From assembly GCA_945860865.1 (NCBI GenBank), contig CAMARW010000006.1, positions 1 through 64,000 on the forward strand: DNA of 64,000 nucleotides, read 5' to 3'. The notes under the pieces were generated by a model. That model saw only the letters and a program-made list of their open reading frames with translations, made no database searches and was not told the origin of the DNA. This document shows positions 14,932-30,880 of the stretch, piece by piece (within the stretch, counting starts at the first letter, position 1; each line of letters starts with the position of its first letter). Source of the stretch: Chitinophaga pinensis. Lineage in GTDB: Bacteria > Bacteroidota > Bacteroidia > UKL13-3. The translations under genes and the position numbers were made by a program.

Positions 14932-15165
14932 ATGAAAATTAGAATAAATCAACTGGTGTTTATCCTGTTTATAATTTTTGTTGTTCCTATATCAGCATTT
15001 GCACAACTAGGTTTTGATGATGATGTTGCTGATACGCCCATTAATGGCGGAACAATTTTATTAACTGTTGCCTCCATAGCTTTTGGAGTAAAAAAGGTGA
15101 TTAACAAATCTTATTTAGAGAAGGTATATCTGCTCGATACTGCACTTACTTCAGTAGTTCAATAA
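14932..15165 (+). CDS. Small exported protein with PID-CTERM-like sorting tail
   Basis: This 77-aa protein has a signal peptide (about 1-24, ending ISAFAQ), a short acidic linker FDDDVADTPINGG, and a hydrophobic segment ILLTVASIAFGVKKVINKS. Acidic D-rich linker, P-I-D/N, hydrophobic helix and basic end are the marks of the PID-CTERM putative sorting signal of Bacteroidota; almost nothing else is present. The usual C-terminus would be near KKVINKS. Here 15 more residues follow, and the gene runs 20 nt into the end of the convergent amylase gene, so the original stop codon may have been lost. A role cannot be given. Confidence 0.6.
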   Translation: MKIRINQLVFILFIIFVVPISAFAQLGFDDDVADTPINGGTILLTVASIAFGVKKVINKSYLEKVYLLDTALTSVVQ

Positions 15166-16999
15166 TGCTAATGCTTTTTGGGGCTAATTCTATTTCTGCC
15201 AGATTTTGAATAGGTTGATCTGAGGCATGGTTGTAGCCGTTTTTATAACCTTTTAGGCGTTCTTCCATCCGGTTGGTATCTAATTTTACTAGACTAGAGC
15301 CACTGTTTACGGCAATCATAAAGCACGTTTGGTCTGTATACCTAAAATAAACATAGGCGTTACCTTCTGGAGTAAATTGCATGAGCTTACCATTTTTAAA
15401 AGCAGCATTATTTTTGCGCAATTGTGCTAGTTTTTTAATGTAATTAAATGCCTCGTTTTCTTGAGCAGTTCTGCCAGTTGGCGTAAATTTATTTAAGGTA
15501 TCGTTTGGCCAAGCACCCGGAAAATCTTGCCTTATTTGTCCATCATTTTTTCTAGGAATGGGATTGGTTAATAAAATCTCTGTTCCATAATAAATACTTG
15601 GTACGCCTCTTAATGTCATTAATAAACCAATGCCCATTTTCCACTTGGCAAAATCTTCCTTTACCTCGGTAAAAAAGCGGTTTAAATCGTGGTTATCTAT
15701 AAAAGTTAAATTAAGGTTCGGATTTTCGTATAATCCATCCTGACAAAGCGTATAATATATTTTGGCCAAACCTTTATCCCATTCAGCCTGTTGGTTCAGG
15801 CCATCCATAATAGACCAAAAGAGGTGAAAATCTTTGGCACTTGTTAAATGACTTGATTTTGGCGACAGTTTATAGCCATTATTTTGGGTGAAATAGGCCA
15901 TATTTAGCACGCTAGACTGTTCCCAAATTTCGCCAGTGGAATAAAAATCTGGGTATTCTGTATGAATATATGCCATACATTTATCCATAAATTCGTAATC
16001 ATTATAGCTATAAGTATCTATTCTAAAAGCGTCGATTCCGGCATAATTAATCCACCATAAATAGCTTTGCATTAAATAAGTAGCTACCCAGGGGTTGCGT
16101 TGGTTTACGTCAGGCATTTGGTTGTCGAACCAACCATCCACCATGCGTTTTTTATCGTAATCGCTGGCATAAGGATCAAGGTGCGTGGTAGCACGGTAAT
16201 TGGTTCGGGTAAATGTTGGCCATTGGTTTACAAAAGAAGCATCTGGCATATCTAGCATCATCCAATGTTTAGAACCAATATGATTGGGTACTAAATCCAT
16301 CATCAATTTCATGCTACGTTTATGAAGTTCGCTGCCTAGTTTTTTATATAAATCGTTGCTACCTAAACGAGGGTCTGTGAGGTAATGATCTGTTAAGGCA
16401 TATCCATGGTAGCTGTAGGCTGGCTGGTTATTTATAAGGGTTGGGTTGAGCCAAAGGCATGATACACCCAAATCTTGCAAGTAATCTAATTTATTAATAA
16501 TGCCTTGTATATCTCCACCATGTCGCCCACCCACAGAATCTCTACTGCACCAAGGTTCGCGCATGGTTTTAATTGCATCATTTTTAGTATCCCCATTGCT
16601 GAACCTATCTGGGAAAGCCAAATAAACAAAGTCGGAAGGATCAATTTGATGGCTTTCTTTTTTAAGTGTTTCTAGTTTATAGGTAATGGTTTTAGTTTTA
16701 CCAGCAGCCTTAAAATTTAGCAAGAGTTGGTTGCCGTGGTAGTTTGCTAGGTTTAAGTATACCAATAAATAATTGGGGTTCTCTAATTTTTTTACCTGGG
16801 TTATTTTTACGCCGGGTGTGGTTAAACTCACTTCAAATTGTGCCGTATTGGTACCATAAATTAGCAGTTGTAGCTCACGTGTTTCAAGGTTGTGCCACCA
16901 GAATTGCGGGTCAATTCTTTTAATTTCTGGCTTTTGGGCCAAAGAAATTTGGCTAAAAAAAGACAAACAAATTAGCAGGAGATGAGCAGGCTTAACCAT
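15146..16999 (-). CDS. Secreted GH13 alpha-amylase/neopullulanase (SusA-like)
   Basis: This 617-aa glycoside hydrolase family 13 enzyme has a signal peptide (1-21) and an N-terminal beta domain of the cyclomaltodextrinase/neopullulanase type (about 25-115), then the TIM barrel. Catalytic residues are D328 (DAFRIDTYS), E357 (STGEIWE) and D438 (FIDNHDLNRF); region I is DLVPNHIG. A C-terminal beta domain ends the protein. It would cut alpha-1,4 (and perhaps alpha-1,6) links in maltodextrins in the periplasm, as SusA does. It is second in an operon after the GH31 gene (5 nt between them), downstream of the divergent Nudix-regulator promoter region. Confidence 0.92.
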   Translation of the reverse strand: MVKPAHLLLICLSFFSQISLAQKPEIKRIDPQFWWHNLETRELQLLIYGTNTAQFEVSLTTPGVKITQVKKLENPNYLLVYLNLANYHGNQLLLNFKAAGKTKTITYKLETLKKESHQIDPSDFVYLAFPDRFSNGDTKNDAIKTMREPWCSRDSVGGRHGGDIQGIINKLDYLQDLGVSCLWLNPTLINNQPAYSYHGYALTDHYLTDPRLGSNDLYKKLGSELHKRSMKLMMDLVPNHIGSKHWMMLDMPDASFVNQWPTFTRTNYRATTHLDPYASDYDKKRMVDGWFDNQMPDVNQRNPWVATYLMQSYLWWINYAGIDAFRIDTYSYNDYEFMDKCMAYIHTEYPDFYSTGEIWEQSSVLNMAYFTQNNGYKLSPKSSHLTSAKDFHLFWSIMDGLNQQAEWDKGLAKIYYTLCQDGLYENPNLNLTFIDNHDLNRFFTEVKEDFAKWKMGIGLLMTLRGVPSIYYGTEILLTNPIPRKNDGQIRQDFPGAWPNDTLNKFTPTGRTAQENEAFNYIKKLAQLRKNNAAFKNGKLMQFTPEGNAYVYFRYTDQTCFMIAVNSGSSLVKLDTNRMEERLKGYKNGYNHASDQPIQNLAEIELAPKSISIIELLK

Positions 17000-17004
17000 G
17001 GCTA

Positions 17005-19455
17005 TTACCAGCTAATATTAAATTTTGAAGGATTGTTTTTGATACAAACTGTTTTTACAGTAGATTTTTTACCATCTATGCTTTTGCCAATTGGATCAAA
17101 CTGAGAAACACCAGGAATTAACTCAATGGTTTCTTGTTTTAGCGCAAGCTCTTTGTTTTCAGATTTAACAGCCTGTTGTGCATCAAAACCATGTAGAATT
17201 AATTTAATATTTTTAAACTTAGAAGCTAAGCTGCCTTCCACATTTGTGAACGCCAATTGTTTATTGGTAGCATCAAATGAAATTTGTCTTTTAAAATATT
17301 TTCCTGATTCATGGGCATAGCCATCGCCAGCATCTTCGTAATAGGTAAACGCATTGTTTGAGTTACCCATATAAACATGCAAATATAAAGTATCATGTGG
17401 CATTTCTTTGGCACTTTGAACCACAGATTGCATGGGGATAATGGCACCACCTTTTACGTATAAAGGAAGTGTTTCCAAAGGTGTTTCAACATACAATTCT
17501 TGGTTGCCAGCATATTTACGTTCTGTATTTAAATCATACCAATCACCGGCAGGTAGGTATACCTTATTAATTTCTTTATTGCTTACAACTGGAGCCACCA
17601 TAATAGATTGGCCAAATAAATATTGATTTTGGTATTTCCAATCATAAATCATTGGGTCGTAAGTATAATTGATGGCTAAACTTCTGGCAACTGGCATACC
17701 ATTTTGGGTAGCCTCATAAAAGCTAGCATATAAGTATGGCATGAGCTTATATCTAAAAGAAATATAATTACGTACAATTTCTTCTACTTTTTCTCCGTAG
17801 CTCCAAGGCTCACTGTCTTTGGCATCAATCATTTTATGACTTCTAAAGAATGGGCAAAAAGCGCCAATTTGCATCCATCTGCTAAATAGTTCTTTGCTAG
17901 CCTCGCCTGCAAATCCGCCTACATCGTAACCTGCATTGGCAACACCGCTTAAGCCAAGGCTGTTTACTAGTCGCACGCCCGCCATCATATGATCATCTTC
18001 TGGGCGGTTATCACCGGTCCAAATAGCCGAATAGCGCTGTATACCGCTATAAGCCGCACGTGTTAGGATAAAAGGTCTTTTGCCCGCCAATAATTTTTTG
18101 GATCCTTCAAAAGTGCTTCTAGCCATTTGCATACCATATACATTGTGCCATTCTCTGTGCGATGTTTTTTTACCATCAAAATCGGCTTCAACTAGATCTG
18201 GGAAACGTTGGCCCCAGGTGGCAGGTTCATTCATATCATTCCAAAAACCATCTATTCCATCATTGATATATCCTTTAAAAGAATTTCCCCACCAATCTCT
18301 GGTTTTAGGGTTGGTAAAATCGGGGAAATAACACCAACCTGGCCAAACTTGGCCGGTATAATTGGTTCCATCCGGATATTTTAGAAATAAATCCTTGGTT
18401 AATCCCTCTTCAAAGGCTTTGTATGTTTTTTCAACTTTTATTCCAGGGTCTACAATTACTACATTCTTGAATCCCATACCCTCTAGTTCGTCGAGCATTT
18501 TTTTAGGTTGCGGGAACCTATTATTATCCCAAGTAAATATTTTATAATTATCCATGTAATGAATATCAAAATAGATTACATCTGCAGGAATTTTCTTTTC
18601 TCTAAACGTTTTGGCCAATGAGATTACCTCTTTGTCTGGGTAATAACTGTATCTACATTGCTGAAAGCCAATACTCCAGAGCGAAGGCATTTCCATTTTG
18701 CCCGTTAAGTCTGTGTATGATTTAATAATGCCTTCTACCGAAGAGTTGGCAATGAGGTAATAATTCATTTCACCTAATTCTGCAGTAAAGCTAGAAAACC
18801 TATTGTTTGAAGCGCCAAAATTAAAATGTGATTTGTGTGTATTATCTAAGAAGATACCGTACACTTTATTGTGATGGATACCTATAAAAAATGGGATGGT
18901 TGCATATAAAGGATCTCCATTACTTGGGTAGGCAAAAAAGTCTGTATTCCAATTAGTATAAGCTTCACCTCGCCTGTTAAGGTTGCCTGTTTTTTCGCCT
19001 AAACCAATGAATCTTTCATCTTCTTGCATTTTTTTATAGGTAGTAACCTCTTCACCAATCCAAGCGGTACCAAAGTCCTTCTCATCCTCATTTAAAATAT
19101 TTCCTGCTTTATCTTTTAGGGTAAATCTTAAGGGATTTTTATTAATCTCTAATGTACAAGAATCTGTTTGAATAAATAACTTGCTCTCTTCTTTTTGCAA
19201 TTTAAAATTTCCTTTATTAGGATTTGCTATTACGGCATAGCTGAAGGTATTAAAGTCTTTTTCTTTGCTAGCTTGAATACGAATTACAGTAGGAGAGTAT
19301 ACCTGAACCTTTACATTTCCATGCGCAGTATTGAGAATAATTCCTTCCTCTATTTCTGTAATAGAAGTAACAGTAGATAAACTTTTGTTTAAGGATTGCC
19401 CTTGCATAGCAAGAGAAAGAAACGTAAAAACAGATAAAAATGTAAATTTTTTCAT
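17005..19455 (-). CDS. GH31 alpha-glucosidase, exported
   Basis: This 816-aa glycoside hydrolase family 31 enzyme has a signal peptide (1-20, ending MQGQ). A beta-sandwich N-domain (to about 250) precedes the barrel. The nucleophile is D407 in GFWNDMNEP, and the acid/base is D482 in WTGDNRPED. C-terminal beta domains and a DUF5110-like region follow. It releases glucose from the non-reducing end of maltooligosaccharides, complementing the GH13 enzyme encoded just downstream. In the Bacteroides sus locus this role belongs to a GH97 enzyme. Its own promoter (19479-19511) lies below a dyad shared with the regulator gene on the other strand. Confidence 0.93.
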   Translation of the reverse strand: MKKFTFLSVFTFLSLAMQGQSLNKSLSTVTSITEIEEGIILNTAHGNVKVQVYSPTVIRIQASKEKDFNTFSYAVIANPNKGNFKLQKEESKLFIQTDSCTLEINKNPLRFTLKDKAGNILNEDEKDFGTAWIGEEVTTYKKMQEDERFIGLGEKTGNLNRRGEAYTNWNTDFFAYPSNGDPLYATIPFFIGIHHNKVYGIFLDNTHKSHFNFGASNNRFSSFTAELGEMNYYLIANSSVEGIIKSYTDLTGKMEMPSLWSIGFQQCRYSYYPDKEVISLAKTFREKKIPADVIYFDIHYMDNYKIFTWDNNRFPQPKKMLDELEGMGFKNVVIVDPGIKVEKTYKAFEEGLTKDLFLKYPDGTNYTGQVWPGWCYFPDFTNPKTRDWWGNSFKGYINDGIDGFWNDMNEPATWGQRFPDLVEADFDGKKTSHREWHNVYGMQMARSTFEGSKKLLAGKRPFILTRAAYSGIQRYSAIWTGDNRPEDDHMMAGVRLVNSLGLSGVANAGYDVGGFAGEASKELFSRWMQIGAFCPFFRSHKMIDAKDSEPWSYGEKVEEIVRNYISFRYKLMPYLYASFYEATQNGMPVARSLAINYTYDPMIYDWKYQNQYLFGQSIMVAPVVSNKEINKVYLPAGDWYDLNTERKYAGNQELYVETPLETLPLYVKGGAIIPMQSVVQSAKEMPHDTLYLHVYMGNSNNAFTYYEDAGDGYAHESGKYFKRQISFDATNKQLAFTNVEGSLASKFKNIKLILHGFDAQQAVKSENKELALKQETIELIPGVSQFDPIGKSIDGKKSTVKTVCIKNNPSKFNISW

Positions 19456-19478: not shown

Positions 19479-19511
19479 TAAATATATATGGTTTAGGGTT
19501 TGATTTCCAAA
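19479..19511 (-). promoter_or_regulatory. Promoter of the GH31-GH13 operon
   Basis: On the minus strand, TTTG (19508-19511) and TATATTTA (19479-19486) are separated by 21 nt, one base off the TAnnTTTG consensus. The dyad at 19527-19547 starts 15 nt upstream of the -33 box, a position suited to activation. Confidence 0.6.
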
Positions 19512-19526
19512 TAAAAAAACGATATA

Positions 19527-19547
19527 AAAGTGTTTGGAGTACACTTT
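19527..19547. promoter_or_regulatory. Operator dyad AAAGTGT-N7-ACACTTT
   Basis: This is a perfect inverted repeat with 7-bp arms and a 7-bp spacer, midway between the divergent GH31 and Nudix-regulator genes. The same dyad (one end base different) is at 22131-22151 in the next divergent intergenic region of the locus. It lies 8 nt upstream of the -33 box of the regulator and 15 nt upstream of that of GH31. It is the probable binding site of the NrtR-like protein; this is inferred. Confidence 0.75.
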
Positions 19548-19555
19548 ATGTATTT

Positions 19556-19586
19556 TTTGACAAACTCACAGAAAATTATATATTTG
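19556..19586 (+). promoter_or_regulatory. Promoter of the Nudix-like regulator gene
   Basis: TTTG (19556-19559), a 19-nt spacer and TATATTTG (19579-19586) match the Bacteroidota consensus exactly. The ATG is 14 nt after the -7 box, so the leader is very short. This supports the start at 19601. Confidence 0.8.
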
Positions 19587-19600
19587 AAGTGGGCATAATC

Positions 19601-20308
19601 ATGAAAAAAAATACTTTCAGAAATCATATATCAGTAGACTGTGTAATATTTGGATACGACGAGCAGTTTAATAAATTGGAAGTACTTTTAATTGAGCAGA
19701 AGAAGCCAAATTTAATAGGCAACAAATCTTTCTTAGCGCAATTTGCTTTACCTGGAGATTTAGTTAATGATGAAGAGGATTTGAATGATGCTGCTAAACG
19801 TGTACTAGACGAGCTAACAAATGTTTCTGGGCTTAACCTTCGTCAGTCTGGTTGTTTTGGCGATCCAATGCGTGTTAAACAAGCCAAAGATAAAGAGTGG
19901 TTGCATTTGTACCGTCAGGATCCAGATGCCAGGGTAATTACAGTAACCTATTATACTTTGGTAAGAAAAGAAATGATTAGGCCAGTGCCAGGTTCATTTG
20001 CTCAAAATGTGGTTTGGAAAAATGCTAAACGAGTTCCTTCTTTGGCTTTTGATCATAATTTAATTGTGAAGCAAGCCTATACAAATTTGAGGCGTGATTT
20101 TGAAGAAGAAATGTTTGCCAAAGCATTGCTGCCACAAAAGTTTACCCTCAAGAATTTGCAAAATTTATACGAAGTTATTTTCAATACCATTTTAGATAAA
20201 AGAAATTTTATTAAACGGATTAAGAAGGAAGATAACTTAACTGAGTTAAGCGAAAAACAAAAAGGAACGATGTTTAAACCCTCTAAACTATATACTTTTA
20301 AAGCCTAA
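19601..20308 (+). CDS. NrtR-family transcription regulator (Nudix-like domain plus winged helix)
   Basis: This 235-aa protein is read from the ATG at 19601; the frame stays open upstream, but a perfect promoter lies in that stretch. Residues 8-140 are a Nudix-like domain (HISVDCVIFGYDE ... FALPGDLVNDEEDLNDAAKR). The Nudix box is degenerate: RVLDEL stands where REUxEE is needed, so it should bind a ligand without hydrolysing it. The C-terminal part (about 150-235) fits the NrtR winged helix. In Bacteroides a relative, AraR, controls arabinose genes. Here the neighbours point to sensing maltose or starch breakdown products and controlling the locus through the AAAGTGT dyads. Confidence 0.85.
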   Translation: MKKNTFRNHISVDCVIFGYDEQFNKLEVLLIEQKKPNLIGNKSFLAQFALPGDLVNDEEDLNDAAKRVLDELTNVSGLNLRQSGCFGDPMRVKQAKDKEWLHLYRQDPDARVITVTYYTLVRKEMIRPVPGSFAQNVVWKNAKRVPSLAFDHNLIVKQAYTNLRRDFEEEMFAKALLPQKFTLKNLQNLYEVIFNTILDKRNFIKRIKKEDNLTELSEKQKGTMFKPSKLYTFKA

Positions 20309-20325
20309 TTTTTCTAAAGAAAATA

Positions 20326-20362
20326 GCATAAAAAAAGCCCGATTAACGGGCTTTTTTTATGC
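20326..20362. terminator. Bidirectional terminator
   Basis: GCATAAAAAAAGCCCG (20326-20341) pairs perfectly with CGGGCTTTTTTTATGC (20347-20362) around a 5-nt loop. It lies between convergent genes, and T/A runs on both strands let it end both transcripts. Confidence 0.9.
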
Positions 20363-20376
20363 TTGTAAGCAATTAA

Positions 20377-22074
20377 TTATTGAACAATCAATTTCAAAGT
20401 TTTAGCTTCTCCACGGTTGTTTGTAATTTTAACAAAATGAATACCATTTGATAATTCTTTACTGTTAATTACTAAACTATTATCTTCAATTTGGCTGAAA
20501 GTTGCAAGGGTTTTACCCGCAACATCCATAATAATTACATCGTGAGATTTTGCAAAATCATTGAATTCAATGTTTACAATGCTATTGCTTGGGTTAGGAT
20601 ATAATTTTACGTTGCCTATTAAATTGTTTCTATCTACTAAACCAGTAGTAGTAGTATCTGCAAGGGTGCAAGTGTTAAACACGTATGCAAGTTTAACAGG
20701 GTTTGCAGTTGTACGTGTGTGAATACGGTTAAATCCACCAACACCATTTGAAACTACACAAGCACGTTGAGTAGTATCACTGAAACTTTCTTCAGAAGCA
20801 TTAACGGATGAATCTCCGTTTACAAATTTGTAAGCAAATGAACCAGGGCAAATATTTACTGTTGTTGCATAAAAACCTGGTTTACCAGCAACCGGACTTA
20901 AACGGATTGCTCCATTTTGCCAGTTTGGTGTAGTAAAGTTACCCATTACGTATACTCTACCTTGTCCATCAGGAGTTTCGTTGCTAAGGTCTACCATAAA
21001 AGTGATATCAGAAGGAGCTGGCTTAGGAATACAGCCACCTGGGGTGCTAGAGTTAAAACAAGTAAGTCCTAAAGTTTCATTTTTACTTAAAATCCATTTG
21101 CGATTGGCAATACCTTCCCAATTGGTATTTCCATTTTTGTGGAAACGGAATTTAAATTCAAATTCACCAGAATCCATGGTTAGGGTTACATCATAAATGC
21201 TGGTATTTCCAATTTTGTTTAATTTAACACCACTTCCCCAATTGGTAATTTCTGTTCTTCCACCTGCAACAGAAACTGAATCAAATCCACCATCACAGTC
21301 GTTGTTTAACATATCTATCACAAAAGTTGCAGTGAAAGTAGGAATTGGAGCAGTAGGACAAGGAGTACAAGAAGCAAAACATACTTTAGAAGCGCCAGTT
21401 GCATTAACGATAATCTCACGATTTTTATCGTTACCTACACCGCAAGCACTTGGTACACTTTCTGCGCCACCCCAAGAATTACCATTGATAAACTTGTATT
21501 GGTATGAACCTGAATCTAAGTAGGCAATCCACTCATATACTTTGTTATTGTTGAATAAATTTGCCATGCTAGTTGAAGCAGGATTCCAGCCTTGTAGGCT
21601 ACCTGCAATGTGAACGCCATCTGAACCCACAGTTTGTAATTGCATGTCTACCGCAAAACGAACAGCAAATTTACCAGCTGGAGCCGAACCACCAAATAAG
21701 ATAGCAGGGATAACAGATGTGTCATTGGCAATAGAATCAACATAGAACCAACGGTTGTCGTTTTGGCCGCCATTTGTTTGGTAACCTACTTGGTTTATGG
21801 CAGGTACACCTTCGCTTTTATCCCAAATTTTTCCATTAATAAATTTGAAATTAATAGGTTGGTTTGCGGGTGCATCTATGAAAGTAGAATAGATGTTTCC
21901 AGACTCTAAAGTTAATTGGGTTGAACCCGGATTCCAGCCTTGAAAGTTACCAGCAACGTGAACACCACTTGTATCCACTGTTTTGCCCGTCATGTCAACG
22001 GAAATCTTAACTTTTTTGGCATAAACTCCCGAAATCATTACGAGAGCAGCACTAAGTAGTAAAATTTTTTTCAT
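20377..22074 (-). CDS. Secreted starch-binding protein with four CBM-like modules and T9SS tail
   Basis: This 565-aa protein has a signal peptide (1-19) and four similar beta-sandwich modules (about 20-115, 135-235, 250-345, 355-455). Each opens with a VDM-type strand and has a VxVAGxxxxW / NFQGWN or SLQGWNP motif and a YKFINGxxW motif, as in CBM20/CBM48-type starch-binding domains. The C-terminal 75 residues are a T9SS type A sorting domain (KLYPNPSNSIVNIEF ... GIHFVKIT). No catalytic domain is present, so it should bind starch at the cell surface, standing in for SusE/SusF. It is divergent from the amylase-susCD operon and shares its operator region. Confidence 0.85.
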   Translation of the reverse strand: MKKILLLSAALVMISGVYAKKVKISVDMTGKTVDTSGVHVAGNFQGWNPGSTQLTLESGNIYSTFIDAPANQPINFKFINGKIWDKSEGVPAINQVGYQTNGGQNDNRWFYVDSIANDTSVIPAILFGGSAPAGKFAVRFAVDMQLQTVGSDGVHIAGSLQGWNPASTSMANLFNNNKVYEWIAYLDSGSYQYKFINGNSWGGAESVPSACGVGNDKNREIIVNATGASKVCFASCTPCPTAPIPTFTATFVIDMLNNDCDGGFDSVSVAGGRTEITNWGSGVKLNKIGNTSIYDVTLTMDSGEFEFKFRFHKNGNTNWEGIANRKWILSKNETLGLTCFNSSTPGGCIPKPAPSDITFMVDLSNETPDGQGRVYVMGNFTTPNWQNGAIRLSPVAGKPGFYATTVNICPGSFAYKFVNGDSSVNASEESFSDTTQRACVVSNGVGGFNRIHTRTTANPVKLAYVFNTCTLADTTTTGLVDRNNLIGNVKLYPNPSNSIVNIEFNDFAKSHDVIIMDVAGKTLATFSQIEDNSLVINSKELSNGIHFVKITNNRGEAKTLKLIVQ

Positions 22075-22097
22075 GTGTAATTGTAAAATTTGTTGAA

Positions 22098-22127
22098 CGA
22101 AAATAAATAAATTGTTAATAAAACAAA
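22098..22127 (-). promoter_or_regulatory. Promoter of the starch-binding protein gene
   Basis: On the minus strand, TTTG (22124-22127) and TATTTTCG (22098-22105) lie 18 nt apart; seven of eight bases match TAnnTTTG. The AAAGTGT dyad starts 3 nt upstream of the -33 box. I could not find an equally good promoter for the plus-strand amylase gene. Confidence 0.55.
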
Positions 22128-22130
22128 AAA

Positions 22131-22151
22131 AAAGTGTCGGAAATACACTTA
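22131..22151. promoter_or_regulatory. Operator dyad AAAGTGT-N7-ACACTTA
   Basis: This is the second copy of the dyad at 19527-19547: identical arms apart from the last base and the same 7-nt spacer length with a different spacer (CGGAAAT here, TTGGAGT there). It lies between the divergent starch-binding protein and amylase genes. Same arms plus different spacer is what a dimeric regulator's site should look like. Confidence 0.75.
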
Positions 22152-22187
22152 TTTTTTTTTTATTCGCATGAGCATCCGAAAAAAAGC

Positions 22188-24995
22188 ATGAAAATTATTA
22201 AAACAAACGCATTAATCTTATTATTGAGTTTTGGCATATTGAGTGCTTTAAAAGCTCAAGTAGTATCATTAACTCCTGTTTTTCCAACGCAATCTCAAGA
22301 TGTAGTTGTTACTTTTGATGCTACCCAAGGAAACGGGGCATTGGCGGGCCAAAATTTGGTATATGCCCACACAGGAGTAATCACTAACTTAAGCACCTCA
22401 CCCACAGATTGGCGCTATGTTCAGGGAAATTGGGGCACGGATGATTCACGGGTTAGGATGATTTCCTTGGGTAATAATAAATTCCAAATTTCATTTAACA
22501 TTGCTAGTTTTTATGGTGTACCCAGCACTGAGCGTGTGCAGAAACTATCTTTTGTGTTCAGAAATGCTGCTGGTAGTGTCGTAGGAAGAAACACAGATGG
22601 TTCGGATATTTTTGTATCTATAAGTGATGGTAGTTTTCGTTATAATATTATAACTACTCCTTCTGGAAATCCTCAAATTTTATTCTTAAGCGATACTTTG
22701 AAATACATGATTCAAAGTTCTGATCTTGCCAATATTTCATTGGGTATTAACGGTAATATTTTTGCATCAAAAGAATCGGTTCAAACTTTGGATACATTTT
22801 TAACAGGCGCCCAAATTGGATTTGGAAAACATTGGATCAAAACTACTTTAGTAAACAATGGAAAAACCTATGTAGATTCTACAATGGTTTTAGTAAGAAG
22901 TATGTTTAGCTCTAATGTTGGTGTTCCGCCGCTGGGAGTGATAGATGGCATAAATTATTTGAGCGATAGTTCTGTGATACTTCAGTTTGTGGCTCCACAA
23001 AAGAGTTTCGTTTATGTTATTGGCGATTTTAACAATTGGGAATTGCACCCCAATTACGAAATGACCAAAACGCCAGATGGCTCAAGATTTTGGTTAGGTA
23101 TACAGGGCTTGTTTCCTGGGCAAGAGTATGCTTTCCAATATGCGATAGATAAACAGCAACTGCTTGTTGCAGATCCATTTGCAGATAAATTTTTGGATGG
23201 TAACAATGATGCTTTTATTGACCAAGAAACCTATCCCAATTTAAAACCATACCCTCATGGTAAAACCAAGCATTACGTTTCTGTATTGCAAACCGCCCAA
23301 AAACCATACAATTGGCGTGTAACTGATTTTAAAAAACCTGCATCTAATAATTTAATTGTTTATGAATTATTGATCAGAGATTTTGTTGGTAAACATAATT
23401 ATCAAGCCTTAATAGACACCATTGCTTACCTCAAAAGACTTGGCATTAATGCCATTGAACTTATGCCGTTTAATGAATTTGAAGGAAATGAAAGTTGGGG
23501 GTATAACACGGCATTTTATTTTGCACCCGATAAATATTACGGAACAAAAGATAAGCTGAAGGAATTTATTGATGTATGTCATCAAAATGGAATTGCGGTA
23601 ATTATGGATATGGTTTTAAACCATTCATTTGGGCAGAGCAGTATGGTTAGAATGTATTTTAATAACAGCACGGGTAAGCCACAAAATAATCCTTGGTTTA
23701 ATGATGATGCCAAACATCCTTTTAATGTGGGGTACGACTTTAATCATGAAAGTATATTAACCCAAAATTTTGTAGATACCGTTGTAAAATATTGGATTAA
23801 TGAATACAAAATAGACGGCTACAGGTTTGATTTATCTAAAGGGTTTACGCAACGCAATACACCAAACGATGTTTCGGCTTGGGGCGCTTTTGATCAAAGT
23901 AGGATTAATTTATGGAAACGAATTGCTGATAAACTTAAGCCTACCAGTGAAGATTGTTATTTGATATTAGAGCATTTTGCTGATAACAATGAGGAAAAGG
24001 TGCTCTCTGATTATGGTTTTTTATTTTGGGGTAATATTAATCATGCCTTTAGTGAAGCGGCTATGGGTTATGCTTCTGATTTAAGGCCTTCTTTATCGCA
24101 ACATAGAGGGTGGTTAGCACCAAATTTAATTCGATATGCAGAGAGTCATGATGAAGAAAGGTTGATGTATAAAAACTTAAACTTTGGATTTACATCGCCT
24201 GCTTATAATGTGAAAGATACCCTCACTGCATTAGAACGCTGTGAAGCTGCTGCGGTCATATTAGCTGCCATGCCAGGTCCTTATATGATATGGCAATTTG
24301 GAGAATTGGGTTATCCTTACAGTATTAATACTTGCAAAGATGGTACGGTTAATAATAATTGTAGGTTAGACAATAAACCCATCAGGTGGGATTACATGAA
24401 ACAAGCACCGAGAAAAAGATTGTATGATGTTTATGCTGCCATGAATGCTTTAAAAACCAAAAATAAAGTATTTGCAAATGGCAATATTAGTCACAACTTA
24501 ACGGCTGCTGTTAAAACAATTTTACTAACGGATAGCTCACTGAGTGTTTATGCTGCCGCCAATTTTGGAACAACTACTTCGTTACTAATAAGAAGGGTAA
24601 GTGAAGTAGGATGGTGGTATAATTATTTTGAGGGTGATTCGGTTTATTTTAATAATACAACAGATTCGGTTCAATTAAAGCCTGGTAAATACTTGCTTTT
24701 AACAAACAAACGACAAGAAAGGCCAAAAATTCAACCGCTGAGTGGCACCATAGAAATTGCTGATATAATTTCGCTTACAATTTTTCCAAATCCTACTGCA
24801 GGTATTTTGCATATCTCATCGGATGTTTCATTCGATAGTTATGAAATTACAGACCTAATGGGCAGAACCTTAACAAGAGGAAATTCCATTATTGATGGCG
24901 AGATTTCTTTGGGCGATATAGCGCCAGGAGCCTATTACGTATCATTAAATTGGCCAAAGGGGAAACTAACAAAAAAAATAATTTTACATAATTAA
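22188..24995 (+). CDS. Secreted multidomain GH13 amylase/pullulanase-like enzyme with T9SS tail
   Basis: This 935-aa enzyme starts at the ATG at 22188, where a proper signal peptide begins (ending LKAQ); an in-frame GTG at 22134 lies in the operator. Order: two N-terminal beta domains, a CBM48-like domain (about 255-330, VYVIGDFNNWELHP), and a GH13 barrel with region I DMVLNHSF, nucleophile D548 (DGYRFDLSK), acid E595 (LILEHFAD) and third Asp in AESHDEERL. A C-terminal T9SS sorting domain follows (IFPNPTAGILHISS ... GAYYVSL). It should attack starch at the cell surface. It is first of five genes with 2-12 nt gaps, followed by SusC. Confidence 0.9.
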   Translation: MKIIKTNALILLLSFGILSALKAQVVSLTPVFPTQSQDVVVTFDATQGNGALAGQNLVYAHTGVITNLSTSPTDWRYVQGNWGTDDSRVRMISLGNNKFQISFNIASFYGVPSTERVQKLSFVFRNAAGSVVGRNTDGSDIFVSISDGSFRYNIITTPSGNPQILFLSDTLKYMIQSSDLANISLGINGNIFASKESVQTLDTFLTGAQIGFGKHWIKTTLVNNGKTYVDSTMVLVRSMFSSNVGVPPLGVIDGINYLSDSSVILQFVAPQKSFVYVIGDFNNWELHPNYEMTKTPDGSRFWLGIQGLFPGQEYAFQYAIDKQQLLVADPFADKFLDGNNDAFIDQETYPNLKPYPHGKTKHYVSVLQTAQKPYNWRVTDFKKPASNNLIVYELLIRDFVGKHNYQALIDTIAYLKRLGINAIELMPFNEFEGNESWGYNTAFYFAPDKYYGTKDKLKEFIDVCHQNGIAVIMDMVLNHSFGQSSMVRMYFNNSTGKPQNNPWFNDDAKHPFNVGYDFNHESILTQNFVDTVVKYWINEYKIDGYRFDLSKGFTQRNTPNDVSAWGAFDQSRINLWKRIADKLKPTSEDCYLILEHFADNNEEKVLSDYGFLFWGNINHAFSEAAMGYASDLRPSLSQHRGWLAPNLIRYAESHDEERLMYKNLNFGFTSPAYNVKDTLTALERCEAAAVILAAMPGPYMIWQFGELGYPYSINTCKDGTVNNNCRLDNKPIRWDYMKQAPRKRLYDVYAAMNALKTKNKVFANGNISHNLTAAVKTILLTDSSLSVYAAANFGTTTSLLIRRVSEVGWWYNYFEGDSVYFNNTTDSVQLKPGKYLLLTNKRQERPKIQPLSGTIEIADIISLTIFPNPTAGILHISSDVSFDSYEITDLMGRTLTRGNSIIDGEISLGDIAPGAYYVSLNWPKGKLTKKIILHN

Positions 24996-24997
24996 AT

Positions 24998-27900
24998 ATG
25001 AAGACAACTTTACTTACAATTTTCGGTTTTTTTCTAACCTTAAGCGTTCACGCGCAATCAATAAAGGGAAAATTAACTGATAGTAAATCGGAGCCATTAA
25101 TTGGTGCAACAGTATTGGTTGAGGGAACCAAAAGTGGTGCGCAAACTGATTTAAATGGCGAATATGTAATTACTGGATTAAATCCGGGTAAATACCGCTT
25201 GCGTTTTCAATATATTGGAATGAAAAACGTTTTTAAAAATATTGAATTATTGGCGGGCCAAACTTTGGTTTTAAATGTTGCCTTAAAAATAGATGAGAAT
25301 AATTTAGATGAGGCAGTTGTAATAGGCTACGGAACCCAAACTAAAAGAGAAATTACCTCATCCATTGCAAAAATTAGCCAAAAGGAATTAAACGATTTAC
25401 CTGTTCAAAGTTTTGAACAGGCTTTGCAAGGAAAATTAGCCGGAGTTTCAGTAACTCAAGGAAGTGGTTTGGCTGGATCTCCAAGTATCGTGCGTATTAG
25501 GGGCATCTCTTCTATTTCTGCCGGAGGAGATCCTCTGTATGTAATAGATGGTATTCCGATGACCCAAGATTATGGTTCTTTTGGAAACGCAGGAGGTGCC
25601 AATTTTAATCCCTTAGCTACCATTAATCCGAACGACATAGAAAGTATAGAAGTATTAAAAGATGCTGCTGCTACCGCTATTTATGGTTCTAGGGGCGCAA
25701 ACGGAGTTATTTTAATTACCACTAAGCGCGCAGGAAAGGGAAAAACTCGTGTAACCTACACGGCGCAAATGGGTTTCTCAACGCCCTCTGCAAAACCTAA
25801 TTTGGTAAGTAGGGATGAATTGCTCAATTTAATGGAAGAAGCATGGATTAATGATGGAAATACAGGCAAGCCAGACTTTAATAAATTTGGTATTAATAAC
25901 ATGACCTGGGATGAGGCCAGAAATAATAATACAGATTGGTATAATGAGCTCACTCAGGTTGGGGTTAAACAGCAACATGATTTAACCTTTTCTAAAGGAT
26001 GGGACAAACTATCTTTATACTCTAGTTTATCTTACAATAAAAATGAAACTTTCATCAAAGGTAATTCATACGATAAAATCTCCGGCAGAATCAATTTAGA
26101 TTATCAAATTTCAAAAAAATTGAAAATGCAGATGGGAACATCCTTTACCAATGGAGACAATAGAAGGGTATACAGCGGATGGAGCGGTGGATATGGATTG
26201 GTAATGTCTTCTGCTTTGCCATTTTATCCAATAAGAAACCCAGACGGAAGTTATTTTTTATTTAATAATTCTGATGCTGGTTTTAGAACCAATCCGCTTA
26301 TGATGATGGAGCAGTTTAAGTGGGTAACCAACGAACAAAGAACGATTGGAAACATCGCATTTGATTATGATATTACAAATAATTTAAAAGCAAGAGTTCA
26401 GGCAAATTACGACTATCAGCATATATCAGACGATCAGTTTGCACCACAAGAACTTACCAGGGTAACGGGTTCAGATACAACTTCTATTGGCACAAAGAAT
26501 TTCCGCTATACCAATAATTACAACTATTTGGCGCAATTAACCTACCGATATAAAATTAATAAATTAAACAAATTTGATATTGTTGGTGGTTTTGAACGCC
26601 AGCAAGCAATTACCCAAGGATTTAATATAATTGAGCGCAATGCAAGCGGATTTGTTGCTGATGGAAGGAAAACAGACAATAATCTAAAGAACTATATTGT
26701 ACCAAGTGAATGGAAATTTGAGCGATTTTTTGGCAGGATTAATTTTAACAGTAAAGACAAATACTTTTTAAATTTTGCTTTTAGTTATGATGGTTCGTCA
26801 AGATTTGGTGATAACCACAGGTATGGTTTTTTCCCTTCAGTTTCTGGAGGTTGGTTAGTAAATGAAGAGCGGTTTTTGGAGAATTTTAAAAAACTCTCTT
26901 TGCTTAAAGTGCGTGCATCTTATGGTAGGTCTGGGAATTCAGATTTTGACCCAAATGCCCGTTACGGCTTTTTCCAGGCTAATTCGGCTATATCATACAA
27001 TGGAAATCCAACACTTTACCCAACTCAATTGGAAAACCCTAATTTAAGATGGGAAACTTCTTGGACATTTAACACAGGATTGGACTTTGGTTTTTTTAAC
27101 AATAAAATTTCGGGAACCTTAGATTTTTATGATAAACGTACCACAGATGTAATCATGAACCTAAACCTTGACCCATCTGTTGGTTTCGGAAATTATTACG
27201 ACAATGTGGGTGCCATTAGAAATTATGGAGCTGAATTTAGCTTGAGAGCAAATTTGATTAGGAAATCTAATTTTACATGGAGTGTTATGGCCAATATTGC
27301 TCGTAACTTTAATGAGATAACAAGCACTGGCGCCTATACAGAAGAAGCGGTAAGTGGTGGTACAAATGATACTAGGGTAGTAGTAGGTATGCCAGTTGGA
27401 ACGTATTACTTGGTAAGATTTTCACACGTAGACCCAGCAACTGGAAGGCCAGTGTATCTAGATAAGGAAGGCAATCAAACTTCTCAATGGAGTGCTAATA
27501 ATAGGGTGCCAGTTGGTAGCATATTGCCTAAAGCGGTTGGTGGTTTTACAAACAATTTTAAATACAAAAATTGGGATTTAAGCTTATTATTTGTCTATCA
27601 AATTGGGGGTAATATTTATGATGCATCAGCTAAACGCCAATTGGGTGTAATGAGTTTCTGGAATTCTCGTCCTGAGATTGGAGATAGATGGAGAGAGCCG
27701 GGTGATGTAGCTGCATTTCCGCGCTTAACATTAGACCCTTCAACTTATGGTTTGCCAGATTACTGGCAATATAATACCCCAATGTGGTTATATGATGCCA
27801 GCTTTTTAAGATTAAGAAATTTAACGGTTGGGTATAATATACCAGAAAAATGGGCTAAGAAAGCAAAAATGTCTAGCACTCGTGTAGCCATTATTTGCAC

Positions 27901-28063
27901 CAACTTATTTGTATTAACAAACTATCCAGGCTTGGATCCTGAAATTGCGAGAGATGGTGAAGGTAATATCAATACTTCTAGAAATATGCAATCTCAAGGC
28001 ACCTACTACTTAAATGCCCCACAAGAACGTACTTACAATTTTCAAATAATTGCTACCTTCTAA
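24998..28063 (+). CDS. susC: SusC-like TonB-dependent outer-membrane transporter
   Basis: This 1021-aa protein has a signal peptide (1-20), a carboxypeptidase-regulatory-like beta domain (about 22-105), and a plug with the SusC family features (VVIGYGTQTKRE, DPLYVIDGIPM, SIEVLKDAAATAIYGSRGAN). A 22-strand-type barrel extends to the end (NFQIIATF). It imports maltooligosaccharides using TonB energy, with the SusD lid encoded next. It starts 2 nt after the amylase gene. Length is normal for the family. The sugar specificity is inferred from the starch enzymes around it. Confidence 0.95.
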   Translation: MKTTLLTIFGFFLTLSVHAQSIKGKLTDSKSEPLIGATVLVEGTKSGAQTDLNGEYVITGLNPGKYRLRFQYIGMKNVFKNIELLAGQTLVLNVALKIDENNLDEAVVIGYGTQTKREITSSIAKISQKELNDLPVQSFEQALQGKLAGVSVTQGSGLAGSPSIVRIRGISSISAGGDPLYVIDGIPMTQDYGSFGNAGGANFNPLATINPNDIESIEVLKDAAATAIYGSRGANGVILITTKRAGKGKTRVTYTAQMGFSTPSAKPNLVSRDELLNLMEEAWINDGNTGKPDFNKFGINNMTWDEARNNNTDWYNELTQVGVKQQHDLTFSKGWDKLSLYSSLSYNKNETFIKGNSYDKISGRINLDYQISKKLKMQMGTSFTNGDNRRVYSGWSGGYGLVMSSALPFYPIRNPDGSYFLFNNSDAGFRTNPLMMMEQFKWVTNEQRTIGNIAFDYDITNNLKARVQANYDYQHISDDQFAPQELTRVTGSDTTSIGTKNFRYTNNYNYLAQLTYRYKINKLNKFDIVGGFERQQAITQGFNIIERNASGFVADGRKTDNNLKNYIVPSEWKFERFFGRINFNSKDKYFLNFAFSYDGSSRFGDNHRYGFFPSVSGGWLVNEERFLENFKKLSLLKVRASYGRSGNSDFDPNARYGFFQANSAISYNGNPTLYPTQLENPNLRWETSWTFNTGLDFGFFNNKISGTLDFYDKRTTDVIMNLNLDPSVGFGNYYDNVGAIRNYGAEFSLRANLIRKSNFTWSVMANIARNFNEITSTGAYTEEAVSGGTNDTRVVVGMPVGTYYLVRFSHVDPATGRPVYLDKEGNQTSQWSANNRVPVGSILPKAVGGFTNNFKYKNWDLSLLFVYQIGGNIYDASAKRQLGVMSFWNSRPEIGDRWREPGDVAAFPRLTLDPSTYGLPDYWQYNTPMWLYDASFLRLRNLTVGYNIPEKWAKKAKMSSTRVAIICTNLFVLTNYPGLDPEIARDGEGNINTSRNMQSQGTYYLNAPQERTYNFQIIATF

Positions 28064-28073
28064 TTAAATTAAT

Positions 28074-29483
28074 ATGAAAAAATTAATACATAAAATTTTA
28101 TTAGGTACGATTGGTATATTAATCGTTGCCTCTTTTTCTGCTTGTGAAAAAGGACTAGATGTACAGCCAGATCCTTCTTTTGGTTTGGATCCAGCAGAAG
28201 CCATTCAATCTGCCGAAGACATGCAGAAATTATTAAACTCATGTTATGATGCTTGTGCAAACATGATGGGTGGGCAGTTTCAGGTTGTTTCAGATTTATT
28301 GGCAGATGATGTTGCTAGGCCGCTCAATAACGATGGTAACACTACAGCTATTTTTAATAGGAGTGTTGCACAATTTAATGGTACCACAAATTCTGCCTAT
28401 TCTCAGCCATACTTTACTATTTACAGGGTAAATGTGATGGATTTGTATTATGATCAAGTAACTTTCTTAGCTGGCGAAAAAGAGCGTTTGCAAGGTGAAG
28501 CTGCTTTTCTGCGTGCACTCTGTCATTTTGAAACGGTAAAGCTTTGGGCACAACCAGCTGGGTTTACTGCTGATAATAGTCATTTAGGTATTATTGAAAG
28601 AGTAAGGGCAAAAAATGAAGTAGTTTTAAGAACAAGTGTGGCAAGTAATTATGCTTTAATTATCGCAGATCTTCAGAAAGCAATTAGCTTGTTGCCAGAA
28701 AGCAATGGTGTTTATGCCAATAAAAATGCAGCAAAGGCATTACTCGCAAAAGTGTATTTTACTAAGGGAGATTATGCTGCTGCTTTACCATTATTAGGTG
28801 AAGTAATTAGTGCAGGATATACCTTAAGCGATAGCCTAAATAGGTTTAATAGAGCAGATGTACAAACAGAGATAATCTTTGGTTTTGTAACCACTAATTC
28901 TGCTTATGATATCAATGCAAGAGGTGCTGGTTTTAAGGGTGCATACAGAAACGACCTAAATTTACCTACCATAGGTATATCCACTGAATTATACAACTTA
29001 TTATCGGCAGATACCACAGACAAACGAAGGAAGTTTGCAGCTTTAATTAATCCTGGACAGGCCAATGAAATTAAGGTTTCTACTAAATTTAATCTCAATA
29101 ATTTTGCAACACCTTATTTAACTTTAACAGACATGCTTTTAATGCGCGCAGAAATATCCGCCTTACAATCAAATCCTGGTTCAGCCATTTTGGATTTAGG
29201 ACCTATTGTTAAAAGAGCTTATGGTGAAACTAGTGCCAAATATGTTTCACTATCTGGATTAAGCGGTCAAGCCTTAATTGATGAAGTAAGGTTGCAAAGA
29301 AGATTAGAAATGCACCTTGAGGGTGATCGGGTAACTCAATTAAAAAGAATAGGTGCCTTTCATTTAACTTCATCAACCATAAGAAACGCACCATGGAATT
29401 GCCCAGGTATGGTGCTACAATTTCCATCGTCTGCCGGAACGGTTCAAGGCTTTATATTTAATCCCGAGGGAGGATGTAACTAA
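28074..29483 (+). CDS. susD: SusD/RagB-like surface glycan-binding lipoprotein
   Basis: This 469-aa protein has a lipoprotein signal (Cys at 24 in SFSAC). The helical TPR-like scaffold of the SusD family runs through the protein: LNSCYDACANMM early, then ERLQGEAAFLRALCHFETVKLWAQPAG, NKNAAKALLAKVYFTKGDYAAAL, and the C-terminal RLQRRLEMHLEGDRVTQLKRIGAF, the family's (R)xERRxELxxEGxRxxDLxRxG motif. It caps SusC and captures the glycan. It is somewhat shorter than many family members. It follows SusC by 10 nt. Confidence 0.95.
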   Translation: MKKLIHKILLGTIGILIVASFSACEKGLDVQPDPSFGLDPAEAIQSAEDMQKLLNSCYDACANMMGGQFQVVSDLLADDVARPLNNDGNTTAIFNRSVAQFNGTTNSAYSQPYFTIYRVNVMDLYYDQVTFLAGEKERLQGEAAFLRALCHFETVKLWAQPAGFTADNSHLGIIERVRAKNEVVLRTSVASNYALIIADLQKAISLLPESNGVYANKNAAKALLAKVYFTKGDYAAALPLLGEVISAGYTLSDSLNRFNRADVQTEIIFGFVTTNSAYDINARGAGFKGAYRNDLNLPTIGISTELYNLLSADTTDKRRKFAALINPGQANEIKVSTKFNLNNFATPYLTLTDMLLMRAEISALQSNPGSAILDLGPIVKRAYGETSAKYVSLSGLSGQALIDEVRLQRRLEMHLEGDRVTQLKRIGAFHLTSSTIRNAPWNCPGMVLQFPSSAGTVQGFIFNPEGGCN

Positions 29484-29495
29484 TAATAACTAAGT

Positions 29496-30014
29496 ATGAA
29501 AAAAATAAATTTATTTGGATTAATAATCCTATCTGTTGTATTCATAGTTTTTGGCTGTAAAAAGCCCTATGATTATAGTAAAGAAGTGGCCGAACCTATA
29601 TCTTCACCAGAGAAGATAGCCGCGGCTTTAAATGGCAGTTGGAAAATGAACACCGCCATTCAAATTGATGAAAAATCTCTTGTAAAAGAATCGATGAATA
29701 TAGCTGATTTTCTTACTGCAGAATCTGGTCAGGTGCCAAATATTAGTTTCAATACAGTAGATAGCACATTTACAGTTGATACAGCGAGTTTGGTGCTTAA
29801 CCTGTTTGTTTTAAGCAATGGAAAATGGAGTTTTGATGACAATAGATATCCTTCCAAAATCATTTTAAAAGACCTCAACGGAAGTATAGCAAGTGAAGTA
29901 TCCATAGGAAAAAACCTTCTTTCTCCAACACCTCAACTTAATTTTGTGAACGCTGTGAATTGTGGTGCTGAAAAAGCGATGTCGTACAGTATTTCATTCC
30001 TTAAAAATAACTAA
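29496..30014 (+). CDS. Small lipoprotein of the sus-like operon (DUF5004-like)
   Basis: This 172-aa protein has a lipoprotein signal (Cys near 21, IVFGCKKPYDYS). It resembles DUF5004-type lipoproteins: a lipocalin-like LNGSWKMNTAIQIDE start and strands with SNGKWSFDDNRYPSKIIL. It lies 12 nt after susD, in the place where susE-type genes usually are, and is probably a surface-exposed accessory protein. It has no known starch-binding motif. The family assignment is from memory of sequence pattern and is moderate. Confidence 0.65.
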   Translation: MKKINLFGLIILSVVFIVFGCKKPYDYSKEVAEPISSPEKIAAALNGSWKMNTAIQIDEKSLVKESMNIADFLTAESGQVPNISFNTVDSTFTVDTASLVLNLFVLSNGKWSFDDNRYPSKIILKDLNGSIASEVSIGKNLLSPTPQLNFVNAVNCGAEKAMSYSISFLKNN

Positions 30015-30016
30015 TT

Positions 30017-30880
30017 ATGAAAAGTATACTATCAACCTTATTTAGTTTATTTATTTCTTATACAGTATTTGCTCAAGCAGCTTGGGTTGAACCTAAGAAG
30101 CCAGATGTTACCAAACCTGTTCGTATCTATTGCGATATTAGCAAAACTACTGCTGCTACAGCGGATGATATGAAATCTAATACAAGTGGTCCCTATTATA
30201 TTTGGACATGGAAGCCGGTAGAAGCCAGGGTTGATTCATTGGTGAATGGAACTGGTGATAAACCATGGAAGAATAGTAATGACAAGTTAATAATGCAGAA
30301 AGATGAGTCGAAAGGGGCTAATGTTTGGTATTACGAAATGGTTCCTACAGAATTTTATGGCGTTGAGCCTGCTGTAGTGTATGCGCAAGGAATTAGTTTT
30401 TTGGTGAAACCTAAAGATGGCGGTGGTTATGGCGATCCAGATGTTAAAACAGAGGATTTAAACCTTACCATAGATCCACCTTCTGTTGAAAGAGGCATCT
30501 TGTATGCTATCCCAAGAACTCTATTTGGCGATCAAATTAATACCCTTATTTACGATAATCCAAATGAACCTAAGCTAAGTATGCGAAATTTAAATGATGG
30601 TGATGTGTACATGCATTTAGTAGCCACAGCAAAGGATAGCTTAGGTGCAACCATAACGATTGAACCTAATAAATTCTTTAAAGTAACTGATAATGCTAAA
30701 CTCAAGATGACCCGCTTAGCCGATGGTCGTTTTAAAATCACTATGATTCCTAATAAGTTTTTGTCTGTACCTGCAGGATATACCTTATTTGATATAGAAA
30801 TAACCGTTAGAAAGAAAAACTATTCATCTGTTGTTGATCAAACCGATAAGAAAACTAAACTATTATTTGGCTGTCAGTAA
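30017..30880 (+). CDS. Exported beta-sandwich protein of the sus-like operon (DUF4961-like)
   Basis: This 287-aa protein has a signal peptide (1-19, YTVFAQ) and no lipobox. The rest is beta-rich: an opening AAWVEPKKPDVTKPVRIYCD, then YYIWTWKPVEAR and WYYEMVPTEFYGVEPAVVYA, a pattern like the E-set domains that precede amylases and like DUF4961-type proteins of starch loci. It has no catalytic motif or sorting tail. It starts 2 nt after the DUF5004-like gene and is the last gene before a terminator, so it completes the operon. It may help to bind starch or support the SusCD complex; this is inferred. Confidence 0.6.
   Translation: MKSILSTLFSLFISYTVFAQAAWVEPKKPDVTKPVRIYCDISKTTAATADDMKSNTSGPYYIWTWKPVEARVDSLVNGTGDKPWKNSNDKLIMQKDESKGANVWYYEMVPTEFYGVEPAVVYAQGISFLVKPKDGGGYGDPDVKTEDLNLTIDPPSVERGILYAIPRTLFGDQINTLIYDNPNEPKLSMRNLNDGDVYMHLVATAKDSLGATITIEPNKFFKVTDNAKLKMTRLADGRFKITMIPNKFLSVPAGYTLFDIEITVRKKNYSSVVDQTDKKTKLLFGCQ

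Follow-up and report, generated by a model that had tools for sequence, protein, structure and literature searches.

The 64,000-nucleotide stretch of DNA analysed here, to which we refer as the window, carries a starch utilization locus whose genes diverge from two intergenic regions. On its left side, a GH13 cyclomaltodextrinase-type enzyme of 617 aa (15146..16999, minus strand; Pfam Alpha-amylase and Cyc-maltodext_N/C) is encoded downstream of, and in one operon with, a GH31 alpha-glucosidase of 816 aa (17005..19455, minus strand; Pfam Glyco_hydro_31, 401 bits). Divergent from these runs the gene of P0001, an NrtR/AraR-like regulator of 235 aa (19601..20308, plus strand), next to that of a secreted starch-binding protein of 565 aa (20377..22074, minus strand), which matches CBM20/CBM48/AMPK1_CBM and is weakly SusE/F-like. 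The second divergence leads into the gene of a secreted GH13 alpha-amylase of 935 aa (22188..24995, plus strand), which opens a susC-susD operon (22188-30880) comprising, on the same strand, a SusC-like TonB-dependent transporter (24998..28063), a SusD-like starch-binding lipoprotein (28074..29483) and two accessory outer-surface proteins (29496..30880; DUF5004-like with 172 aa and DUF4961-like with 287 aa, under the Pfam cut-off). No other regulator gene was observed within the starch locus. Close to its left edge lies the gene of a tyrosine recombinase of the phage integrase family (524 aa, 12373-13947).

Two dyads between divergent genes

Each of the two divergent regions holds one operator-type dyad. 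Dyad 1 (19527..19547), with the sequence AAAGTGT-TTGGAGT-ACACTTT, separates the GH31 gene, its predicted target, from the regulator gene; dyad 2 (22131..22151), with the sequence AAAGTGT-CGGAAAT-ACACTTA, separates the starch-binding gene, likewise a predicted target, from the amylase-susC-susD operon. An initial annotation had described the pair as AAAGTGT-N7-ACACTTw, with the same arms and different spacers, and as unique within the window; both sites are where it placed them, and no further copy with zero or one mismatch exists across the 64 kb.

Could such a pair have arisen by chance or through local duplication, with no regulatory role at all? The small number of copies would be compatible with this, as AGTGT-N7-ACACT occurs only twice in the entire genome (2.59 Mb, 13 contigs), at just these two places. 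The reversed control pattern, however, is absent from the same genome, and its density across 64 genomes of the family (6 hits in about 195 Mb) yields an expectation of 0.002 exact dyads per 64 kb and a probability of about 2e-6 for two or more, on which grounds a chance origin was rejected. Chance and duplication are further opposed by the different spacers of the two dyads, by flanks that diverge while the arms stay conserved, and by the unlinked copies that relatives carry at amylase genes, so that we regard this explanation as very improbable. The four closest one-mismatch places outside the window all fall within genes, and no additional regulon member was found in this genome. At up to three mismatches, the window contains 33 matches where 34.5 are expected; as the loose pattern is thus not enriched, only the exact pair carries meaning.

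A regulator related to AraR

What kind of protein is encoded beside dyad 1? In agreement with the Nudix-like, NrtR-type regulator that had been proposed, the frame at 19601..20308 matches the NrtR winged helix (PF21906, NrtR_WHD; 69.3 bits against a cut-off of 27) and a Nudix-like domain (PF00293; 26.6 bits against 21.1), whose catalytic Nudix box is degenerate, reading RVLDEL where REUXEE is expected. It is the sole NrtR_WHD protein found in the genome. Its closest match in the PDB is AraR of Bacteroides thetaiotaomicron (BtAraR, BT0354; PDB 5BS6/5DD4/5DDG/5DEQ), which combines the same two domains, and this sequence similarity can be taken to settle the fold of P0001. The overall relationship is nevertheless distant (phmmer 2e-26), the score against the AraR_C Pfam model remaining under its cut-off (22.3 versus 23.8 bits).

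In the crystal of BtAraR with DNA, the operator used was GCAAAAGTGTTACTTTTACACCCATGC, of the form AAAGTGT-N7-ACAC, in which K179, R180, N181 and K184 read GTGT (PMC4666351 Table 2). All four residues, together with D178, are present in P0001 (DKRNFIK, within the helix DKRNFIKR), and the dyads have the same operator form. Members of the NrtR family bind palindromes of about 21 bp before their targets, and at the predicted targets of P0001 there is a conserved dyad of 21 bp. Of the residues that contact arabinose in AraR, R86 and H131 are retained, whereas R34 is replaced by Q; moreover, P0001 is linked to starch, maltose and glucose genes where AraR is linked to arabinose genes, and it has an insertion of about 15 aa in the Nudix domain that AraR lacks. 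Based on helix and operator, P0001 very likely binds both dyads. Given this match in helix and operator to AraR, whose complex with DNA has been solved, binding and ligand are directly testable.

P0001 was also compared with other known regulators. NrtR of Shewanella oneidensis and its relatives shares the two domains and the impaired Nudix box, but has the helix GKSF in place of KRNF and controls NAD genes; P0001 scores only 69.5 bits against a cut-off of 400 for the NCBIfam equivalog NF050029, which argues against an NAD-type NrtR. Starch loci of Bacteroidetes are usually attributed to SusR. In B. thetaiotaomicron, SusR is a membrane protein that senses maltose in the periplasm and activates from direct repeats set apart by a long spacer (PMC3878776). 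While P0001 would share with SusR the control of a starch utilization locus, its site is palindromic, and the protein starts within the Nudix-like domain and displays, by inspection, neither a signal nor a membrane segment. Starch control appears to be assigned here to a soluble cytoplasmic regulator, which may act in place of SusR, as the initial annotation had predicted. NrtR-type sugar regulators have so far been described for arabinose (AraR, shown) and xylose (XylR, predicted), and XylR of B. thetaiotaomicron (BT0791), compared by description only, belongs to the same NrtR branch in Bacteroidetes in a xylose context (PMC4666351, PMC3878776); among the orthologue loci that we examined, no xylose locus was recognised.

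Conservation and co-occurrence of regulator and dyad

The initial annotation had named the lack of the dyad before orthologous operons as a result that would speak against its proposal, but the dyad is kept in nearly all starch loci of the family. Regulator identity among these loci is 65-97%. Both dyads are kept in L044-L051 and L054; L069 and L055 retain dyad 2, and in L055 one arm of dyad 1 is altered. When ten regions between the starch-binding gene and the amylase or susC gene are aligned (alignment A1), AAGTGT and TACACTT are invariant at a mean column identity of 58%; in eight regions between the GH31 and the regulator gene (alignment A2), AGTGT and ACAC account for 9 of the 18 invariant columns. 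In L052 and L053 the regulator faces a maltose operon, and the nearby dyad is changed to TTAATGT-N7-ACATTTA or TTAATGT-N7-ACAATTA. Away from the starch locus, three genomes (L077, L078, L084) have a dyad in front of a second amylase gene, and two (L051, L054) have one between a GluP-type glucose/galactose transporter plus kinase and a GH13 gene.

The distribution of regulator and dyad across genomes points in the same direction. Within the family, 12 of the 13 genomes that encode an orthologue have the dyad, compared with 8 of the 51 that do not (p=4e-7); across 395 sampled Bacteroidia, the corresponding figures are 48 of 51 and 97 of 344 (Fisher 3e-20), where an orthologue counts as absent if it falls under the search threshold of 1e-42, and where the relatedness of the sampled genomes makes both p-values overstate independence. 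The 51 orthologue-bearing genomes of the class contain 157 dyads against 11 matches to the control pattern.

The dyads in genomes without an orthologue could be taken to mean that they serve another, unlinked regulator, with the neighbouring Nudix-like gene as a mere passenger. In the family, such dyads lie mostly within open frames and represent background. In the class, all eight dyad-rich, orthologue-free genomes tested carry other NrtR_WHD proteins, 10 of the 11 with a similar helix, mostly DKRNFRKK, so that the pairing of helix and operator appears to be general in the sugar branch. Taken with the co-occurrence across the class, the AraR co-crystal type of the operator and the lack of a second NrtR_WHD protein in the genome of P0001, this makes an unlinked regulator very unlikely. 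Specificity is further argued for by the paralogous NrtR genes of the family, beside which no GTGT-N7-ACAC occurs in the loci of 16-19 kb that were examined. The notion that the two dyads define a starch regulon of an NrtR-type regulator, as originally put forward, is therefore supported by helix identity with AraR, operator match, conservation and co-occurrence, with binding as the predicted link.

Two further observations concern other NrtR-type proteins. The paralogue loci L056-L063 (e.g. L060:8875-9600, L062:8186-8914) encode NrtR-type regulators, several with the helix DKSNF, near other glycan genes, including a GH17-fused transporter beside the regulator in L059; these paralogues may control their own glycan loci via a different operator. 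A single genome, G175, has 44 matches to the dyad pattern and none to the control, and carries another NrtR_WHD protein; these matches may belong to a dispersed repeat or, alternatively, to a regulon of very large size.

Probable mode of control and reach of the proposed regulon

Does P0001 repress or activate? At three of the four promoters in the window, a dyad lies upstream of a putative -33 box TTTG: that of the regulator gene (19556..19559, plus strand) is 8 nt from dyad 1, with a putative -7 box TATATTTG at 19579..19586 (plus strand); that of the GH31 gene (19508..19511, minus strand) is 15 nt from dyad 1, with a weaker -7 box TATATTTA at 19486-19479 (minus strand); and that of the starch-binding gene (22124..22127, minus strand) is 3 nt from dyad 2, with a -7-like TATTTTCG at 22105-22098 (minus strand). 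The earlier description of dyads 3-15 nt upstream of TTTG is accurate for these three, but not for the amylase-susC-susD operon, where the 36 nt from dyad 2 to the start codon contain neither TTTG nor TAnnTTTG.

The same protein at the same sites could therefore be envisaged as an activator, or as a dual regulator, that sits just ahead of the -33 boxes in the divergent regions and recruits RNA polymerase in the presence of a starch-derived sugar. Besides the spacing of 3-15 nt, this would agree with the recurrence of the distance between dyad and -33 box of the regulator promoter in several orthologues, with the long stem (0.92) of the window's family in the regulator tree, and with the location of the -7 box, which in regulator promoters of this family follows the dyad by 23-32 nt (8 cases against 1.09 expected), in sharp contrast to offsets of 3-7 nt in the class, and so places the dyad upstream of -33, where a repressor would not classically be expected. 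In relatives across the class, an exact TAnnTTTG lies 0-11 nt past the dyad in 11 cases against 0.48 expected; here the dyad lies over the promoter core, in the position of a repressor. Activation is further opposed by the 36 nt before the amylase-susC start codon, into which a complete downstream promoter does not fit, by the dyads at the family's GluP, GH13 and second amylase genes, which are 20-30 nt from the start codon, and by the release of known AraR and NrtR proteins by their ligands. To our knowledge, every characterised relative of NrtR and AraR is a repressor. Activation, which the initial annotation had read from the position of the dyads, is consequently not established and seems to us rather unlikely; repression with release by a sugar, as in AraR, is favoured.

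Directly adjoining dyad 2, towards the amylase and susC genes, a T-tract and then TCGCAT (22152..22169, plus strand) recur in loci L045-L051, L054, L055 and L069, with columns T79-T84, T90, G92, C93 and A94 of alignment A1 invariant; the spacer of dyad 2 is also conserved, being usually AGGAAAT or CGGAAAT. This goes past what the regulator is expected to need and may reflect a promoter of unusual type or an additional control element; the T-tract and TCGCAT are possibly part of the amylase/susC promoter.

Our analysis thus suggests a scenario, with a probability of roughly 0.7, in which an AraR-related NrtR regulator of the sugar branch, whose clade extends more widely into Bacteroidia, represses the locus until a starch sugar in the cytoplasm releases it from DNA. 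A dimer of P0001 would occupy AAAGTGT-N7-ACACTT at both dyads and, in its apo form, keep down four transcripts: the regulator gene, the GH31-GH13 operon, the starch-binding gene and the amylase-susC-susD operon. Binding of the sugar would rotate the winged helices and so free the DNA, as arabinose does with AraR. Sites, conservation, co-occurrence, helix identity and regulon content were computed, while binding, repression and ligand are inferred. As ligand, glucose is our best guess, which rests on the sugar kinase gene, the neighbour most regularly found with the regulator, on the company of GluP and GH65, and on the precedent of AraR; maltose or a sugar phosphate could serve as well. In the genome of the window itself, no GH65 relative was detected, and the closest homologue of the kinase (38%) is without a dyad.

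How far does this system reach? Orthologues occur in 51 of the 395 sampled Bacteroidia genomes, 46 of them outside the family at 39-53% identity. In a maximum-likelihood tree, a branch with support 87/93 sets them apart, and they bear the insertion, with the motif FGDPxRVxxxKDxEWLxxxRxDPxAR, which AraR, NrtR and the paralogues of the family lack. Their neighbourhoods hold genes for a BadF-type sugar kinase (so named by inspection and homology among loci, with only a weak NagK match), beta-phosphoglucomutase, GH65 maltose phosphorylase, GH13/GH31 enzymes, an MFS sugar transporter and susC-susD, as well as gap, pfkA and zwf-pgl-edd-eda, many of them preceded by the dyad. In five genomes, unlinked dyads lie before or beside pgi, transketolase (tkt), pfkA, and genes for a bifunctional phosphoglucose isomerase and monomeric isocitrate dehydrogenase, and one gene away from those for pyruvate kinase and methylglyoxal synthase, although some dyads of the class are within genes and sites seen in a single genome are weak evidence. 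Taken together, this has the appearance of a glucose/alpha-glucan regulon shared across the class, and the same clade would elsewhere in Bacteroidia also govern maltose phosphorolysis, the sugar kinase, glycolysis and the Entner-Doudoroff pathway. More tentatively, and in our view less likely than not, the insertion clade could sense cytoplasmic glucose or a close product throughout the class and keep the uptake of starch and maltose in step with glycolysis and Entner-Doudoroff metabolism, the operator having moved upstream of -33 at several promoters of the family, where repression was possibly turned into activation. With its class-wide targets (maltose phosphorylase, kinase, gap, pfkA, pgi, zwf-pgl-edd-eda, tkt), the regulon as such would make the protein a candidate central glucose regulator in many Bacteroidia. 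A search of the open literature, with subscription papers and RegPrecise outside its scope, found no description of a starch/glucose clade of NrtR, the relevant matches being papers on AraR and XylR; to this extent the clade appears to be new, NrtR-type sugar regulators themselves being known.

Individual genomes of the class provide additional detail. One of them (G345, loci L147-L158) has 15 dyads, including sites directly before the genes for glucose-6-phosphate isomerase and monomeric isocitrate dehydrogenase. In two loci (L124:9175-10499 and L126:2304-3602), NrtR-like frames occur in tandem, a short one of 183-187 aa lying upstream of the full-length regulator, and adjoin a dyad with one outer arm altered.
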